Source: Haloglomus litoreum (GTDB taxonomy: Archaea > Halobacteriota > Halobacteria > Halobacteriales > Haloarculaceae). Taken from it: 64,000 bases of DNA. Both the position numbers and the translations under genes were made by a program. Positions 45,242 through 52,394 of this stretch are shown one piece after another. Positions within the stretch are counted from its first letter, which is position 1. Every line of letters starts with the position of its first letter. The notes below the pieces were generated by a model. It worked only from the letters and a program-made list of their open reading frames with translations, had not been told where the DNA came from and did not search any database. The stretch is taken from contig NZ_CP119988.1 of assembly GCF_029338515.1 (NCBI RefSeq), positions 3,782,001-3,846,000 on the forward strand. The letters are read 5' to 3'.

Positions 45242-47014
45242 TCATATCGGCAACCAGCCGGCGACCGACACCGGCACGGCGGGGATGGTCGGGTCGAGCG
45301 CCCCGCTCTGGATCATCGAGTAGATGGGGAAGCCGTAGGCCAGCACGACCAGCAGGAGCGCGAAGACGGCCCACAGGCGGAGGTTGTCGAGCACCTTCGG
45401 GGCGTCCTCGGCGCCAGACAGCGGCTCGGGGAACTCGCTGTTGACCCGGAGGTCGCCGCCCTTGCCCGCGAGGATGGTCGCGAACATCACCGCGAGGAAC
45501 ATCACGAGCGCGACGAACAGCAGGGTGCCGCCGAGCGCGATCTGGATGCGCATCTCGCCGTAGCCGCCGACCGTCTGCGCGTAGTTGAAGGCCTCGTACT
45601 GTGGCTCCGCGGTGCGTCGGGGGACGCCGATGAGGCCGGCGCGGTGCATCGCGTTCGACATCAGCGTCATGCCGAGGAACCACATGTACGGCTGGACCGC
45701 CGCGACGCCCCGGAGCTGGAGGCGCTTGCCGGTGATCTGGGGCACGAGCCAGAAGCTCGCGGCCATCGCCGTCAGGGCGAACGCCGTGCCGACGGTGAGG
45801 TGGAAGTGGCCGGGCACCCACAGCGTGTTGTGGACGAGGTAGTTGATGTTCATCCCGGCGTTGATCATCCCGGAGAAGCCGCCGGCGGCGAACATCAGGC
45901 CGGCCAGCGCCATCCCCGAGAACGCGGGGTTGCCCCACGGCAGGGTCTTCAGCCAGCCGAAGTAGCCGTCACCACCCTGCTGGCGCCCGGCGTGTTCCAG
46001 ACTGGCGACGACGGTGAACGCCGTCAGCAGCGACGGCAACAGGAGGAACATCGTGTTCGTCATCGCGACGAACTTGAAGCCCTCGGGGATGCCGGGGTCG
46101 ACGTACTGGTGGTGGAAGCCGACCGGCGTCGACAGCAGGACGAACAGGACGAAGACGATACGCGCGAGCGGATCACTGAACAGCCGCCCGCCCGCCAGTT
46201 TCGGCATGATGGTGTACCACGCGAGGTACGCGGGCAGGAGCCAGAAGTAGACGACCGGGTGGCCGAAGAACCAGAACAGGGTCCGGGCCAGGGTGGGGTC
46301 CGGCGTCGAGATGAGCCCCAGCGACCACGGGATGAGGAAGACGACGACCTCGATGGCGATGCCGATGGTGGCGACGTACCACATCACCATCGTCGTCAGG
46401 ACCATGAACGCCTGGAGCGGGATGCGCTCGTCGGCGTTGGTCTTGCGCCACGCCCAGAACCGGCGGAACCAGCCCAGGCCGACAACCCAGGAGCCGACGA
46501 CGATGAGCGCCGCGCCGATGTAGAACGCGGGGTGAGCCTGCAGCGGCGGGTAGAACGTGAACAGCACGTCCGCCGAGAGCGGCACGCTGTCGACGAGGCC
46601 GCCGAGGATGGCCACTGCGGCGAGGACCGTCCCGACGAGGAGCATGGCGAAGCCGCCGTACTCGACGCGCGGGTCGACGCTCCCCCGGTCGAGCGAGCGG
46701 GTGATGGCCCAGTTGAAGAAGCCGCTGATGAAGAACGTCGTGAACACCAGCACCAGCAGCACGCCGTGGCCGGTGAGGATGGTGTAGTAGTCGGCCGAGG
46801 AGACGAACCCGCGGAAGGCACCGGTCCGGTGGAGCGCCTGGATGAGGCCGAACAGTCCCCCGATGCCCAGCGCGACGAACGCGACGAGGAACGTGTAGCG
46901 GGTCAGGCGGGCCTCGGTGGGGAACTTGTCGACGAAGGCGTTGCGGTCCTCGTCGATGACCTGATCGTCGGTCGCGGTCCCGGTGTCGCTCTCGTCAGGG
47001 GTGATGGTCGCCAT
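45242..47014 (-). CDS. cbaA: ba3-type cytochrome c oxidase subunit I
   Basis: 590 residues, about 13 membrane helices. Reduces O2 to water at a heme-copper centre and pumps protons. His83 (TGHGVLL) and His404 are the low-spin heme ligands. His251 and Tyr255 (HPVVYFWLLPAY) form the cross-linked CuB pair; His300/His301 (GFHHQY) complete CuB; His402 lies in GHFH. The absence of the HPEVY glutamate and the short motif are typical of the B-type ba3 group. The start overlaps the stop of subunit II by 1 nt (TAATG), so the two are coupled. Confidence 0.95.
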   Translation of the reverse strand: MATITPDESDTGTATDDQVIDEDRNAFVDKFPTEARLTRYTFLVAFVALGIGGLFGLIQALHRTGAFRGFVSSADYYTILTGHGVLLVLVFTTFFISGFFNWAITRSLDRGSVDPRVEYGGFAMLLVGTVLAAVAILGGLVDSVPLSADVLFTFYPPLQAHPAFYIGAALIVVGSWVVGLGWFRRFWAWRKTNADERIPLQAFMVLTTMVMWYVATIGIAIEVVVFLIPWSLGLISTPDPTLARTLFWFFGHPVVYFWLLPAYLAWYTIMPKLAGGRLFSDPLARIVFVLFVLLSTPVGFHHQYVDPGIPEGFKFVAMTNTMFLLLPSLLTAFTVVASLEHAGRQQGGDGYFGWLKTLPWGNPAFSGMALAGLMFAAGGFSGMINAGMNINYLVHNTLWVPGHFHLTVGTAFALTAMAASFWLVPQITGKRLQLRGVAAVQPYMWFLGMTLMSNAMHRAGLIGVPRRTAEPQYEAFNYAQTVGGYGEMRIQIALGGTLLFVALVMFLAVMFATILAGKGGDLRVNSEFPEPLSGAEDAPKVLDNLRLWAVFALLLVVLAYGFPIYSMIQSGALDPTIPAVPVSVAGWLPI

Positions 47015-47592
47015 TATCGGTCACCTCCGTACGTCAGCGCGGCGCGGAGCCGTTCGCGGTCCTCGCCGTCGCTCGGCTCCTGGTCGTACTCGGACTGCGG
47101 GACGACCTCCATCGTCCCGGCCATGTCGTGGTGGCCGGCGCCACAGTACTCGTGACAGATGATCCCGTAGGTCGCCGGCTCGTCGAACCGGGCGGTCATC
47201 TTCGAGACCTGCCCGGGCGCCACCATGACGTTCACGTTCGTGCCGGCGATGTTGAACCCGTGCATGACGTCGGCGGAGGCGACGTAGAACGTCACCTCGC
47301 TCCCCGCCGGCACCCGGACCGGTTCGCCCGTCCCGGGGTTGAACGCGAACCGCTGGGCCACGATGTACACGTCGTAGCTGTTCTCACCGCTCTGGTAGAC
47401 GCCCGGTTCCTGGAAGTTGTCGACAGCATCCCAGTTCCCGTTGGCGATGGGGGTCGCGCCGACCTGGCCGCCGGAGTCGTCGACCATCGCGATTCCCGGG
47501 CCGACCGCCCCGTACGCGATGGTCCCGATGAACCCGACGATGAGCACCATCCCCGCGACGAACCACGCCTTCTCGTATCTGTGTATCTCCAT
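47014..47592 (-). CDS. cbaB: cytochrome c oxidase subunit II (CuA protein)
   Basis: 192 residues: one N-terminal membrane helix (about 10-32) and a cupredoxin domain facing outside. The CuA site is complete, with His111 (VMHGF), Cys146, Glu148, Cys150, His154 and Met157 in CHEYCGAGHHDM. It accepts electrons from a carrier, probably halocyanin, and passes them to heme in CbaA. ATG 47592 gives the normal short N-terminus. Its stop overlaps the ATG of cbaA, and the halocyanin gene lies 5 bp upstream, so all three form one operon. Confidence 0.94.
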   Translation of the reverse strand: MEIHRYEKAWFVAGMVLIVGFIGTIAYGAVGPGIAMVDDSGGQVGATPIANGNWDAVDNFQEPGVYQSGENSYDVYIVAQRFAFNPGTGEPVRVPAGSEVTFYVASADVMHGFNIAGTNVNVMVAPGQVSKMTARFDEPATYGIICHEYCGAGHHDMAGTMEVVPQSEYDQEPSDGEDRERLRAALTYGGDR

Positions 47593-47597
47593 TGATA

Positions 47598-48416
47598 TCA
47601 CCCGATGATGGTCGGTCCGCCGCCGAGGAACTCGACGAAGTACATGAGTATCCACATCACGACCAGGATGAGGAAGTAGCCGATGAGCAGTGCCGCGGTC
47701 CCGCTCGGGTCGTACGCGTCGTGCCCGATGGTCCGCTCGGCGCTATCCTCCGCGGGGGCCGACTCCACCGCCGGCCCATCGACGTCTCGCACCTTCTCCT
47801 TCCAGGCGCCGTACGAGCGGTAGCCGTCCGCGCCGAGGATCATCGCGCCGGCGAGGCCGGTCACGCCCAGCAGGAGCCCCATGAACGTGAGGCCGAGGGC
47901 TCCGCCCGGCGGCTCGAACGGCTGCCCGCCCCCACCCAGTTCGACATCGCCGGTCACGACGACGCCCTTCATGCCGAGCGCGCGGTGGGGCTGGCAGAAG
48001 TACTTGGTCACACCCTCCTCCTCGAACGTCTGCTCGAAGGTGAATCCCGCCTCGGCGACCAGCTCGGACTCGAAGGCACCACCCTCGTCGACGACGTTGT
48101 GCTGGTTGCCCTGGCCGGTCCACTCCCAGATGACGGTCGTACCGGGGTCGACCTGGATGGCCGCGGGACCGAACCCGTACGGCTGTCCGCCGTTGTCGAC
48201 GCCGACGCGGACCGTTACCTCCTCGCGACCGGTCCGGTCGATGACGCCGTTGTAGTTCTGGACGTCGGAGAGCCAGCCGTCGAACGACGGTTGGGCCTGG
48301 GCCGCGGCCGGGCCCGCGAGCGCCGACGCACCCGCGGCCGTGGCTGTAGCGCCGGCAGCCCCCCGAAGAACCGCTCGCCGACTGATGCTCCGCCGTCCGG
48401 AGGTTCCGTTCGACAT
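47598..48416 (-). CDS. Tat-exported halocyanin fused to an oxidase small-subunit-like membrane tail
   Basis: 272 residues. Order: a Tat signal (SRRAVLRGA, 12-20), a blue-copper cupredoxin with ligands His106, Cys141, His144 and Met149 (CQPHRALGM), a membrane helix (about 172-195), a cytoplasmic or linker segment, and a second helix (about 240-263) ending VEFLGGGPTIIG. The last 35 residues (YDPSGTAALLIGYFLIL...) resemble the CbaD/subunit IIa peptide that is a separate small gene in other ba3 operons. The protein likely donates electrons to CuA while anchored in the oxidase. First gene of the operon. Confidence 0.85.
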   Translation of the reverse strand: MSNGTSGRRSISRRAVLRGAAGATATAAGASALAGPAAAQAQPSFDGWLSDVQNYNGVIDRTGREEVTVRVGVDNGGQPYGFGPAAIQVDPGTTVIWEWTGQGNQHNVVDEGGAFESELVAEAGFTFEQTFEEEGVTKYFCQPHRALGMKGVVVTGDVELGGGGQPFEPPGGALGLTFMGLLLGVTGLAGAMILGADGYRSYGAWKEKVRDVDGPAVESAPAEDSAERTIGHDAYDPSGTAALLIGYFLILVVMWILMYFVEFLGGGPTIIG

Positions 48417-48496: not shown

Positions 48497-48523
48497 TGCT
48501 GGCGACCGAACGGGCGCGTAGCA

Positions 48524-48718
48524 ATGCTCGACGCGCTCCCTCCCTCGCTCGCCCCGGTGGTGGCACTGCTCGCACTCCCGTCGGTCGCGGTGTTCTTCCT
48601 GAGCCGCGGGGAGCCGTTCATCGCCGTCGCGGCGGTGAACGTGCTCCTCATCGCCGGGAGCCTGCTGTACGTCGTCACGCGGGAGGGCTCCGGCGAGCAC
48701 GGGGCGACCCACGCCTGA
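48524..48718 (+). CDS. small CbaE-like membrane protein of the ba3 oxidase cluster
   Basis: 64 residues with two membrane helices (about 8-26 and 31-51): PSLAPVVALLALPSVAVFFL and FIAVAAVNVLLIAGSLLYVV. A similar tiny gene, cbaE, is described next to the ba3 genes in Natronomonas; here it is divergent from the halocyanin gene. Assignment by position and size, so moderate. It could help assemble or stabilise the oxidase. Confidence 0.65.
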   Translation: MLDALPPSLAPVVALLALPSVAVFFLSRGEPFIAVAAVNVLLIAGSLLYVVTREGSGEHGATHA

Positions 48719-48782
48719 CGGCGGGCGAGCGCGAGGCGGACACGGATCGACGGTCGAGTACCGAGTGCGGTCCCCCACACAC

Positions 48783-49580
48783 ATGGCATCCAGTCCCTTC
48801 GCCGGGTTCGTCCCCGAGGCCGGAGCCGGCGGCCTGGAGGTCGCCGCCTTCCTCCTGCTCGGCGCACTCGGGAGCATCCACTGTCTCGGGATGTGTGGTC
48901 CACTCGTCTCGACGTACGCCGAGGGCATCCGCTCTCGCGGTCACGACGCGACCGAGTGGGCATCCATCCGCCAGCACCTCCTGTTCAACGCCGGGCGGAC
49001 CGTCTCGTACGCCGCCCTGGGTGCCGGCTTCGGTGCGCTCGGCGCGATCCTCGTCGACGCGGGTGGCCTGCTCTCGGTCGCCAGACTCGTCCGGGGGGTC
49101 GTCGGCATCACGGTCGGGCTGTTCGTGCTCGCGCTCGGACTGGGCTACCTCGCTGCCGACCGCGGCGGCGGCCGGTTCGTGGGCGCACTCGGCCGACCGT
49201 TCCGTGCCGGTGGGGCGGCGCTCTCGGGAACCGTCGCCTGGCTTCGGGCCCGTGCCGAACGGTGGACCCGCGGCCCCCGGATCGTCGGCCTCGGCGCGGC
49301 CCACGGCCTCCTGCCGTGTCCGCTCCTCTACCCGGCGTTCCTCTACGCCCTGGCGACGGCCTCACCCGTCCGGGGCGCCGTGGCGCTCGCGGCGCTGGGT
49401 GCCGGGACCGTCCCCATGGTGTTCGCGACGGGGCTCGCGGTCGGGTCACTCGGCCCGGAGACGAAACGACGGCTCCACCGCGCCCTCGGCGCGGCGTTCG
49501 TCCTGCTCGCCGTGCTCCCGCTCCGGATGGGGCTGCGGAGCCTCGGGATCGAACCGCTCGCGCTCCTGGGGGTGGCGTAG
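48783..49580 (+). CDS. SafE/DsbD-like membrane protein for oxidase assembly
   Basis: 265 residues, six or so helices. It carries the family motif GSIHCLGMCGPL (Cys34 and Cys38) and a second-half motif GAAHGLLPCPLLYPAF. These belong to the UreH_2/SafE-DsbD_2 group, whose bacterial members occur beside CcoI/CcoS and help copper insertion into cytochrome oxidase. The paired cysteines may carry copper or electrons. The next gene starts at the base after this stop and is certainly cotranscribed. ATG 48783 fits the start of the first helix. Confidence 0.82.
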   Translation: MASSPFAGFVPEAGAGGLEVAAFLLLGALGSIHCLGMCGPLVSTYAEGIRSRGHDATEWASIRQHLLFNAGRTVSYAALGAGFGALGAILVDAGGLLSVARLVRGVVGITVGLFVLALGLGYLAADRGGGRFVGALGRPFRAGGAALSGTVAWLRARAERWTRGPRIVGLGAAHGLLPCPLLYPAFLYALATASPVRGAVALAALGAGTVPMVFATGLAVGSLGPETKRRLHRALGAAFVLLAVLPLRMGLRSLGIEPLALLGVA

Positions 49581-52163
49581 ATGAGCGACCCGCCGACCGG
49601 GCCCGTCGACGTCGACGGGCCCGACGGCTGTGACCTCTGTGACCTCCCGACGCCGGACCCACCCGTGACGGACGAGGACGTGCCGGGCGCGTACTGCTGC
49701 CAGGGGTGTCTGGCGGTCGCGGGGACGCTGGACGCCCCGACGGAGACCGACATCGGGGACGCCCGCGAGGCCGTCCGCGCCGAGCGCCGCGAGCCGGTCC
49801 CGGACGAGGCCGAGACCGCGTTCGTCCGGGTCGAGGGGATGCACTGCACCAGCTGCGAGGCGTTCCTCGAATCGCGCGCCGAGGGCGCGCCCGGCGTCCA
49901 CCGCGCGGAGGCCAGCTACGCCGCCGAACTCGTCCGGGTCGCGTACGACCCCGACGAACTCGGGGCGGCGGGTGGCGATGGCGGGGACGGGGGCGACGAG
50001 CGGGCCGGCGCCGACGAGCGGGTCGCCGCGCTGCTCGACGCGCCGGGCTACCGGGCCCGGCCGGCCGACGGCGCCGAAACGGACGACAGCGAGTCGCTGG
50101 GCCGGCTCCTCGTCGGCGGCTTCCTCGGGATGATGGTGATGGCGTGGTACGTCCTCTTCCTCTACCCGACCTACCTGGGGCTCCCGTCCGACGCGCTCCT
50201 GCTCGACGTCCGGGGCTCGGCGGGCGGCTACCTCCTGTGGAACGTCTGGGCGTTCTCGACCATCGTGCTGGGCTACACAGGCGCCCCCGTCCTCCGGGGG
50301 GCGCTCGTGAGTCTCCGGGCCGGCCGGCCGAACATGGACCTGCTCGTGGCGACGGCCGCCGTCACCGCCTACCTCTACAGTACGGCGGTCCTCCTGACCA
50401 GCGACGTCGACGTCTACTTCGACGTGAGCGTGGTCGTGCTCGTCGCAGTGACCGTCGGGGGGTACTACGAGCGGCGCATCCGGCGGCGCGCGGCCGACCG
50501 GCTGGCCGACCTGACGACCGAGCGTGTCGAGACGGCACGGCGGGCGGTCGATGACGGAGGGAGCGACGGAAGCGGCGGCGAGGCGGCCGGCGACGGGGCG
50601 GGTGGGGCTGCGGCCACCGAGACGGTCCCGGTCGACGAGGTGGCCACGGGCGACCGCCTCGTCGTGGAACCGGGCGAGCGACTCCCGACCGACGGGACGG
50701 TCGTGGACGGGCGCGCGGGCGTCGACGAATCGCTCGTGACCGGCGAGGCCGCCCCCCGGCGGGTCGGCCCCGGCGACGAGGTGCTGGGCGGCGCACTCGT
50801 GACCGACGGCACCCTCCGGGTCGAGAGCGACGGCACCAGCACGGTCGAGCGGCTGGCCCACCACCTCTGGGACGTGCAGGCCGCGACGCCGGGCGCACAG
50901 CGAGTCGCCGACAGGGTGGCGGCCGTCTTCGTCCCGCTGGTGGTCGTCGTGGCGGCGCTGGCGTTCGGCGCGACGCTCCTGACCGGCGGCACCGCGACCG
51001 GCGCGCTCCTGACGGGGCTGGCGGTGCTGGTCGTCTCCTGCCCGTGTGCGATGGGGCTGGCGACACCCCTCGCGGTCGCGGCCGGCGTCCGGGACGCGCT
51101 GGACCGCGGCGTCGTCGTGACCGACCCGTCCGTGTTCGAGACGGCCGTCGACGCCGATACCGTGGTACTGGACAAGACCGGGACGCTCACCGAGTCGGAG
51201 CCGTCGCTGGTCGAGCGGGCGGGCGACCACGAGGCACTCCGGCGGGCGGCGGCCGTCGAGCGCCGGGCCGACCACCCCATCGCGGGCGCCGTGGTCGATG
51301 CGGTCGACGCGCCCCCGGCGGCCAGCGGCTTCCGCACCCACCCGGGACACGGCGTCAGCGCCGTCGTCGAGGGGGACCGCGTCCACGTCGGCGACGCGGC
51401 GCTGTTCGAGGGCCTGGACGGCGACTGGTCGGTGCCCGACGCCTGCCGGACGTGCTACGAGGCCGGCGACGAGCGCGGCATCGCCGCGTACGTCGGCTGG
51501 GACGGCGCGGTCCGGGGGGCGCTGGTGGCGGCCGAGCGCCCACGCGAGGGGTGGGAGGCGGCGGTCGAAGCCCTCGGGGCGGGCCGCCGCGTGGTGGTCC
51601 TCACGGGCGACGACCGGGCCGCCGCCGAGTCGTTCGCCTCACATCCGGCCGTCGACGAGGTGTTCGCCGGCGTCCCGCCGGCGGGGAAGGCCGAGACCGT
51701 AGAGCGGCTCCGGAAGCGGGGGACCGTCGTGATGGTCGGTGACGGGAGCAACGACGCGCCGGCGCTCGCGGCGGCGGATCTCGGGGTCGCCCTCCGCTCG
51801 GGGACGGCACTGGCGGCCGACGCCGCCGACGCCGTCGTCACGGATGGCGGACTCGACCGGGTGCCGGCCGTGTTCGACCTCACGACGGGGACCCGGCGCC
51901 GGGTCCGGGAGAACCTCGGCTGGGCGCTGTGCTACAACGCCGTCGCCGTGCCGGCGGCGGCGCTGGGCCTGCTGTCGCCGCTCCTCGCGGCGGTCGCGAT
52001 GGCGACCAGCAGCCTGCTCGTGGTGGCCAACTCGACGCGCCCCGTCCTCGACAGCGAGGCGCGCAGCGACGGGCGGAGGCGCGGGTCGGGCGACGACCAC
52101 ACCGGCGAATCCGACCCGGGCGGGCCGTCGGCACCGACCCGGACGCTGGCGGGGGACGACTGA
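49581..52163 (+). CDS. CcoI/FixI-like copper-transporting P-type ATPase
   Basis: 860 residues. The N-terminal zinc-ribbon-like metal-binding domain has Cys17, Cys20 and Cys39/Cys40/Cys43 (CDLCDLP...YCCQGC). An HMA domain has GMHCTSC (Cys89, Cys92). The membrane copper site is Cys487-Pro-Cys489 (SCPCAMGL); phosphorylated Asp531 lies in DKTGTLT; DHPIAG is the intact HP motif and GDGSNDAP the hinge. This combination is typical of CcoI/FixI, the pump that loads copper for heme-copper oxidase assembly. Position directly after the SafE-like gene and near the ba3 genes supports that role. CopA-like export is the alternative. Confidence 0.93.
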   Translation: MSDPPTGPVDVDGPDGCDLCDLPTPDPPVTDEDVPGAYCCQGCLAVAGTLDAPTETDIGDAREAVRAERREPVPDEAETAFVRVEGMHCTSCEAFLESRAEGAPGVHRAEASYAAELVRVAYDPDELGAAGGDGGDGGDERAGADERVAALLDAPGYRARPADGAETDDSESLGRLLVGGFLGMMVMAWYVLFLYPTYLGLPSDALLLDVRGSAGGYLLWNVWAFSTIVLGYTGAPVLRGALVSLRAGRPNMDLLVATAAVTAYLYSTAVLLTSDVDVYFDVSVVVLVAVTVGGYYERRIRRRAADRLADLTTERVETARRAVDDGGSDGSGGEAAGDGAGGAAATETVPVDEVATGDRLVVEPGERLPTDGTVVDGRAGVDESLVTGEAAPRRVGPGDEVLGGALVTDGTLRVESDGTSTVERLAHHLWDVQAATPGAQRVADRVAAVFVPLVVVVAALAFGATLLTGGTATGALLTGLAVLVVSCPCAMGLATPLAVAAGVRDALDRGVVVTDPSVFETAVDADTVVLDKTGTLTESEPSLVERAGDHEALRRAAAVERRADHPIAGAVVDAVDAPPAASGFRTHPGHGVSAVVEGDRVHVGDAALFEGLDGDWSVPDACRTCYEAGDERGIAAYVGWDGAVRGALVAAERPREGWEAAVEALGAGRRVVVLTGDDRAAAESFASHPAVDEVFAGVPPAGKAETVERLRKRGTVVMVGDGSNDAPALAAADLGVALRSGTALAADAADAVVTDGGLDRVPAVFDLTTGTRRRVRENLGWALCYNAVAVPAAALGLLSPLLAAVAMATSSLLVVANSTRPVLDSEARSDGRRRGSGDDHTGESDPGGPSAPTRTLAGDD

Positions 52164-52226: not shown

Positions 52227-52394
52227 ATGACCGCAACCGACACCAGCGAGGGCACCGAGGACGCGTCCATGAGTGACTCCGCCGACGACGACGAGGAGCT
52301 CCCGTTCGCGGTGAAGGTGATGATGGTCCTCATCGTTCTCGCCATCCTCGGCGTCGTCCTGGTCGACGTACTCCACTTCCTCGGCGCGTTCTGA
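52227..52394 (+). CDS. 55-residue single-span membrane protein
   Basis: Too short for routine ORF cut-offs. It begins MTATDTSEGTEDASMSDSAD, acidic, followed by one membrane helix (VKVMMVLIVLAILGVVLVDV) and a short tail LHFLGAF; TGA at 52392-52394. A second ATG (52269) could give a 41-residue form. It lies 63 bp after the CcoI-like ATPase gene, so a role in oxidase or copper biology is possible but unsupported. Confidence 0.6.
   Translation: MTATDTSEGTEDASMSDSADDDEELPFAVKVMMVLIVLAILGVVLVDVLHFLGAF

Follow-up and report, generated by a model that had tools for sequence, protein, structure and literature searches.

The locus examined here lies in a window of 64,000 nucleotides, by which we mean the whole stretch of DNA that was analysed. 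It raises the question of whether a blue copper protein encoded next to the genes of a terminal oxidase is itself a part of that oxidase, and whether such an arrangement would do away with a diffusing electron carrier. A sequence-only reading of the locus had proposed both. As judged from its sequence, the 272-aa open reading frame (ORF) is a halocyanin/CbaD fusion, composed of a Tat-like signal, one halocyanin domain and two helices (Table 1).

Table 1. Features of the fusion gene, of its surroundings in the window and of the bc-complex cluster of the same genome (positions preceded by L107 refer to that cluster).
Feature	Position	Strand	Remarks
Halocyanin-CbaD fusion gene	47598..48416	-	272 aa, ATG start
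Tat-like signal, twin arginine	48297..48416	-	residues ~1-40; boundary read by eye; low model confidence
Halocyanin (type-1 copper) domain	47955..48281	-	residues 46-154; TIGR03102; ligands H106, C141, H144, M149
Extra helix TM1	47787..47897	-	residues 174-210; model helix; proposed topology adapter
CbaD/subunit IIa tail	47601..47741	-	residues 226-272; free-CbaD profile match
cbaB, oxidase subunit II with CuA motif	47014..47592	-	Thermus ba3 subunit II, E 5.5e-31
cbaA, oxidase subunit I	45242..47014	-	Thermus ba3 subunit I, E 8.1e-124
Small hydrophobic ORF, divergent	48523..48718	+	65 aa; matched in 1/80 loci (L001)
DsbD_2/SafE-like membrane protein	48765..49580	+	PF13386 E 1.5e-42; 55/80 loci
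Copper-type P-type ATPase	49581..52163	+	matched in 78/80 loci
Halocyanin with C-terminal helix	L107 8577-9140		directly upstream of bc-complex genes
Rieske-like protein	L107 9528-10370		name from reading of sequence
Cytochrome b	L107 10460-11254		
PetD-like protein	L107 11261-12058		name from reading of sequence
Another halocyanin	L107 17172-17738		

The halocyanin domain scores 146.1 bits against its NCBIfam family, where the cut-off is 93.8, and the protein also matches Pfam Copper-bind with an E-value of 1.1e-13. The four type-1 copper ligands, which had been called intact, are indeed present, and all are invariant across 28/28 fused sequences in an alignment that uses the last halocyanin domain of each. 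The copper ligand C141 is the only cysteine of the protein, and the CXXCH haem c motif of the caa3 type is absent. In the structure model, the cupredoxin part is well predicted (blocks 41-160 at 89-98), and the PDB structure that matches it best is plastocyanin 1bxu (E 1.7e-8). The model as a whole has a mean pLDDT of 77.8 and a pTM of 0.53, with low confidence in the linkers. Two helices had been said to follow the domain; both are found by hydropathy and in the predicted structure (174-210 and 237-264).

As for the oxidase, the fusion ORF lies directly upstream of cbaB-cbaA, with 5 bases between its end and the cbaB ATG; the frames of cbaB and cbaA overlap. CbaA is nearest to Thermus ba3 subunit I (3eh3_A), with the A-type chains among the matches listed far behind, and the CuA stretch H...C...C...H...M of CbaB aligns with Thermus subunit II. 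Both its subunit I and its CuA site would make the predicted enzyme a ba3 (B-type) oxidase.

A scan with the window CbaA, from which the best 80 of 105 relatives in named genomes were taken, provides a survey biased towards near relatives. The window CbaA is 90% identical to the CbaA of Haloglomus halophilum. A CbaD-bearing ORF is found directly upstream of cbaB in 80/80 loci, with a gap of -4 to 18 bases. Halocyanin is fused to CbaD in 27 of these 80 haloarchaeal ba3 loci and split from it in the other 53.

The last helix of the window protein had been likened to CbaD/subunit IIa, and this likeness is borne out. A profile built solely from the 53 free-standing CbaDs of the split loci matches residues 226-272 (DPSGTAALLIGYFLILVVMWILMYFVEFLGGGPTIIG) with an E-value of 1.4e-23 and 55% identity over 47 columns, a resemblance far beyond chance. 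The same profile, run over the organism's own 4.7-Mb genome with E up to 10 allowed, gives one match only, which is the fusion tail. A check for a separate cbaD elsewhere in the genome had been suggested; none was found in this search, the profile matching the tail and nowhere else. The result that was to refute the proposal, a second cbaD together with a tail unlike CbaD, was therefore not obtained.

Conserved positions tell the same story. The motif P-x-G-[TA] followed by W is present in 80/80 loci. P237, G239, T240, W255 and E262 are invariant in the 28 fused proteins (the 27 of the survey and that of the window), as are the corresponding P, G, W and E in the 53 free CbaDs. The top PDB match of the profile is Thermus ba3 subunit IIa (1ehk_C), weak alone with its E-value of 0.023, and aligned at the P-x-G-T/A and W positions that a passage of PMC3128077 describes for subunit IIa. 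Taken together, these sequence comparisons strongly support the tail as CbaD/subunit IIa. A wider sample covered 292 genomes of the class; 201 of them gave a CbaD match, fused and split taken together.

A small hydrophobic 55-aa ORF (52227-52394) also lies beside the oxidase genes, with a match in 1/80 loci (L001). It was rejected as a separate cbaD, being absent from the CbaD profile matches. An HTH gene near the oxidase genes is likewise matched in locus L001 only, of 80.

The fusion itself is described in print for Halobacterium salinarum (PMC2674319, PMC3128077, PMC3403918, PMC8305020) and for Haloarcula (PMC3128077, PMC3403918), and passages of these four papers use it as an argument for halocyanin being the partner of the oxidase. 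Neither the fusion nor its reading is therefore new, and the window protein is another member. HcpB of H. salinarum (OE_4073R / VNG2196G) and a protein of Haloarcula marismortui share with it an N-terminal halocyanin, a C-terminal CbaD and a position directly upstream of subunit II, according to parts of PMC3128077, PMC8305020 and PMC2674319. The H. salinarum locus (L019), however, has two halocyanin domains, whereas the window protein has one. The CbaD of the Natronomonas pharaonis and Haloferax volcanii ba3 oxidases and Thermus subunit IIa resemble the window tail, being single helices with P-x-G-T/A and W and preceding subunit II (PMC3128077, in part), but they are free-standing small subunits without halocyanin.

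Our literature search found no biochemistry on any halocyanin/CbaD fusion protein. caa3-type oxidases offer a functional parallel, with a tethered donor in the form of cytochrome c fused to subunit II. The window protein differs from these in its donor, a blue copper instead of haem c, and in its carrier, subunit IIa instead of subunit II.

In the tree of CbaA and CbaB the fused rows group together, with one split row (L017) inside. When the 28 fused rows were held together, the log-likelihood was 6.38 higher and p-AU was 0.611, so these sequences do not reject one clade of fused oxidases. The split CbaD of Halomicrococcus (L017:7345-7488) accompanies an oxidase that the quick tree places within the fused group. 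It is possibly a fission, on a long branch, and a tree without L017 inside is equally good.

In terms of domain number, a single halocyanin domain is found in 6 of the 28 fused proteins and a pair in 22. Two of the latter are irregular, with the first domain cut by the frame (L010) or located in another frame (L028). In the 20 two-domain proteins left after excluding these, the first and second domains (D1 and D2) of one protein have a mean identity of 81%, against 63% for the same position between proteins. In several lineages of the domain tree, a protein's D1 groups with its own D2 as sister, although only 7/44 inner branches of this tree are starred. The similarity within proteins and the sister pairs point to repeated duplication or gene conversion. 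Halocyanin domain number is labile. Locus L019 (H. salinarum DSM 3754) has two 300-base copies that are 80% identical. In strain NRC-1, according to PMC3119063, one copper domain of HcpB was precisely deleted through a 32-bp repeat; besides that paper, our search found no useful literature on the two-domain form. This analysis thus adds to the published picture the count of 27 fused and 53 split loci, a single fused clade that is not rejected, two domains in 22/27 fused survey loci, and the lability of domain number.

The fused proteins also differ from free CbaD in their helices. A threshold scan gives exactly two hydrophobic segments in 26/27 fused loci (L018 has a third near the signal), against one segment in 50/53 split loci and two in 3/53. 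Mean pairwise identity in the fused proteins is 27% for the first helix (TM1) and 67% for the second (TM2), and TM1 was rejected as a conserved extra subunit on the former value. The count of K and R is greater after TM1 than before it in 26/28 fused proteins, equal in L020 and lower in L015. In A-type oxidases, helix 1 of subunit II runs from the outside to the inside. Subunit IIa superimposes on that helix with the opposite polarity, as stated in a passage of PMC3128077. Poor conservation and a positive-inside signature fit a topology adapter, and we infer that TM1 lets an exported N-terminal domain precede an inside-to-outside helix.

The explanation that we favour, and consider very probable, is that the fusion is a haloarchaeal ba3 subunit IIa with an electron donor built into it. 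What follows on topology, docking, the path of the electrons and their donor is inferred. The halocyanin domain, exported by Tat, would lie on the outer side of the membrane, joined to the rest by a linker of ~26 residues. TM1 would lead the chain inwards, and the CbaD helix would return it outward, with the polarity that has been reported for subunit IIa, and pack in the oxidase. An upstream donor would reduce the tethered copper site; this donor may be the anchored halocyanin at the bc complex or a different halocyanin. Electrons would then pass to CuA of CbaB and on to CbaA. Some findings count against this explanation: the true donors could be among the many other halocyanins of the genome, L020 and L015 depart from the positive-inside pattern, and both the pTM and the PDB match of the CbaD profile (E 0.023) are low.

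One half of the original proposal is a donor tethered to the oxidase. It follows from the strongly supported CbaD fusion that halocyanin would be an integral, covalently tethered part of the enzyme, and this reading, already in print, is plausible from the sequence. The other half, in which a diffusing carrier would be bypassed, finds no support in the form proposed, because the fused domain must itself still be reduced by something. The genome contains 18 halocyanin-domain matches, 7 of them over the family cut-off and some sharing one frame, and the bc locus has an anchored halocyanin gene of its own. The same genome has 6 COX1 matches. Two of the halocyanin-domain matches fall in an open frame of 708 aa elsewhere in the genome (C1:4511163-4511912; L082, L087).

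Haloarchaeal Rieske/cytochrome b complexes were reportedly treated by Baymann et al. in 2012. The only cytochrome b match of the window's genome lies in the cluster read as L107 (C1:2989000-3008900). We also surveyed the surroundings of cytochrome b in 40 stretches from 39 other genomes, namely 26 of the 27 fused genomes, that of L017 and 12 others of the 28 split genomes that have cytochrome b. A halocyanin match lies upstream on the same strand in 39/40 stretches, so that every one of the 39 genomes has such a match; the lone exception is the second cytochrome b of the L018 genome. A motif script finds a hydrophobic C-terminal segment in 36 of these 39 bc-linked halocyanins, and no motif in L129, L131 and L132.

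Judging by these genes, an anchored halocyanin on the bc side and another on the oxidase side coexist, and a relay without a free carrier is allowed. We are doubtful, while giving it some chance, that the last respiratory stretch in bc-bearing haloarchaea does work without a free carrier, from the helix-anchored bc halocyanin to the one or two ba3-tethered halocyanin domains, copper to copper, perhaps in a bc-ba3 supercomplex. Cytochrome b (PF00033) is present in 28/28 fused genomes, the window's own included, versus 28/53 split ones (Fisher p 2e-6). A tie between the fusion and the bc complex was rejected as independent evidence, because there is only one independent pair on starred branches.

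On the other side of the fusion gene, the SafE/DsbD_2-like and copper ATPase genes (48765-52163), divergent from the oxidase genes, are likely involved in copper supply. In Halobacterium, hcpB, coxB2, coxA1 and a copper ATPase gene appear in one list of jointly raised transcripts in PMC2880973, in favour of the explanation that we prefer. The presence of these two neighbours in most loci would suit a different role for the fusion, in which CbaD is a mere membrane anchor or co-expression device, free halocyanins mainly feed CuA, and the tethered copper forms a side branch or helps with assembly or copper delivery. The loci in which CbaD is unfused, 53 of the 80, and the many other halocyanin domains in the genome also agree with it. 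We nevertheless find this role improbable: the invariance of all four copper ligands in the fused proteins is what is expected of an electron carrier, and the fused clade has kept the halocyanin domain across several families. Lastly, that the tail is a chance hydrophobic anchor of a membrane halocyanin is next to impossible: it is a short hydrophobic helix, but the E-value to free CbaD and the sole genome match already refute the idea, and the shared P, G, W and E, the poorly conserved TM1 of the same proteins and the failure to find another cbaD in the genome all speak against it.

A subunit IIa carrying its own donor would offer a tractable test system, in which the donor is covalently tied to the oxidase and one or two copper domains sit on an otherwise fixed anchor. 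Such a system could address whether tethering takes the place of diffusion, and what a second copper domain contributes.
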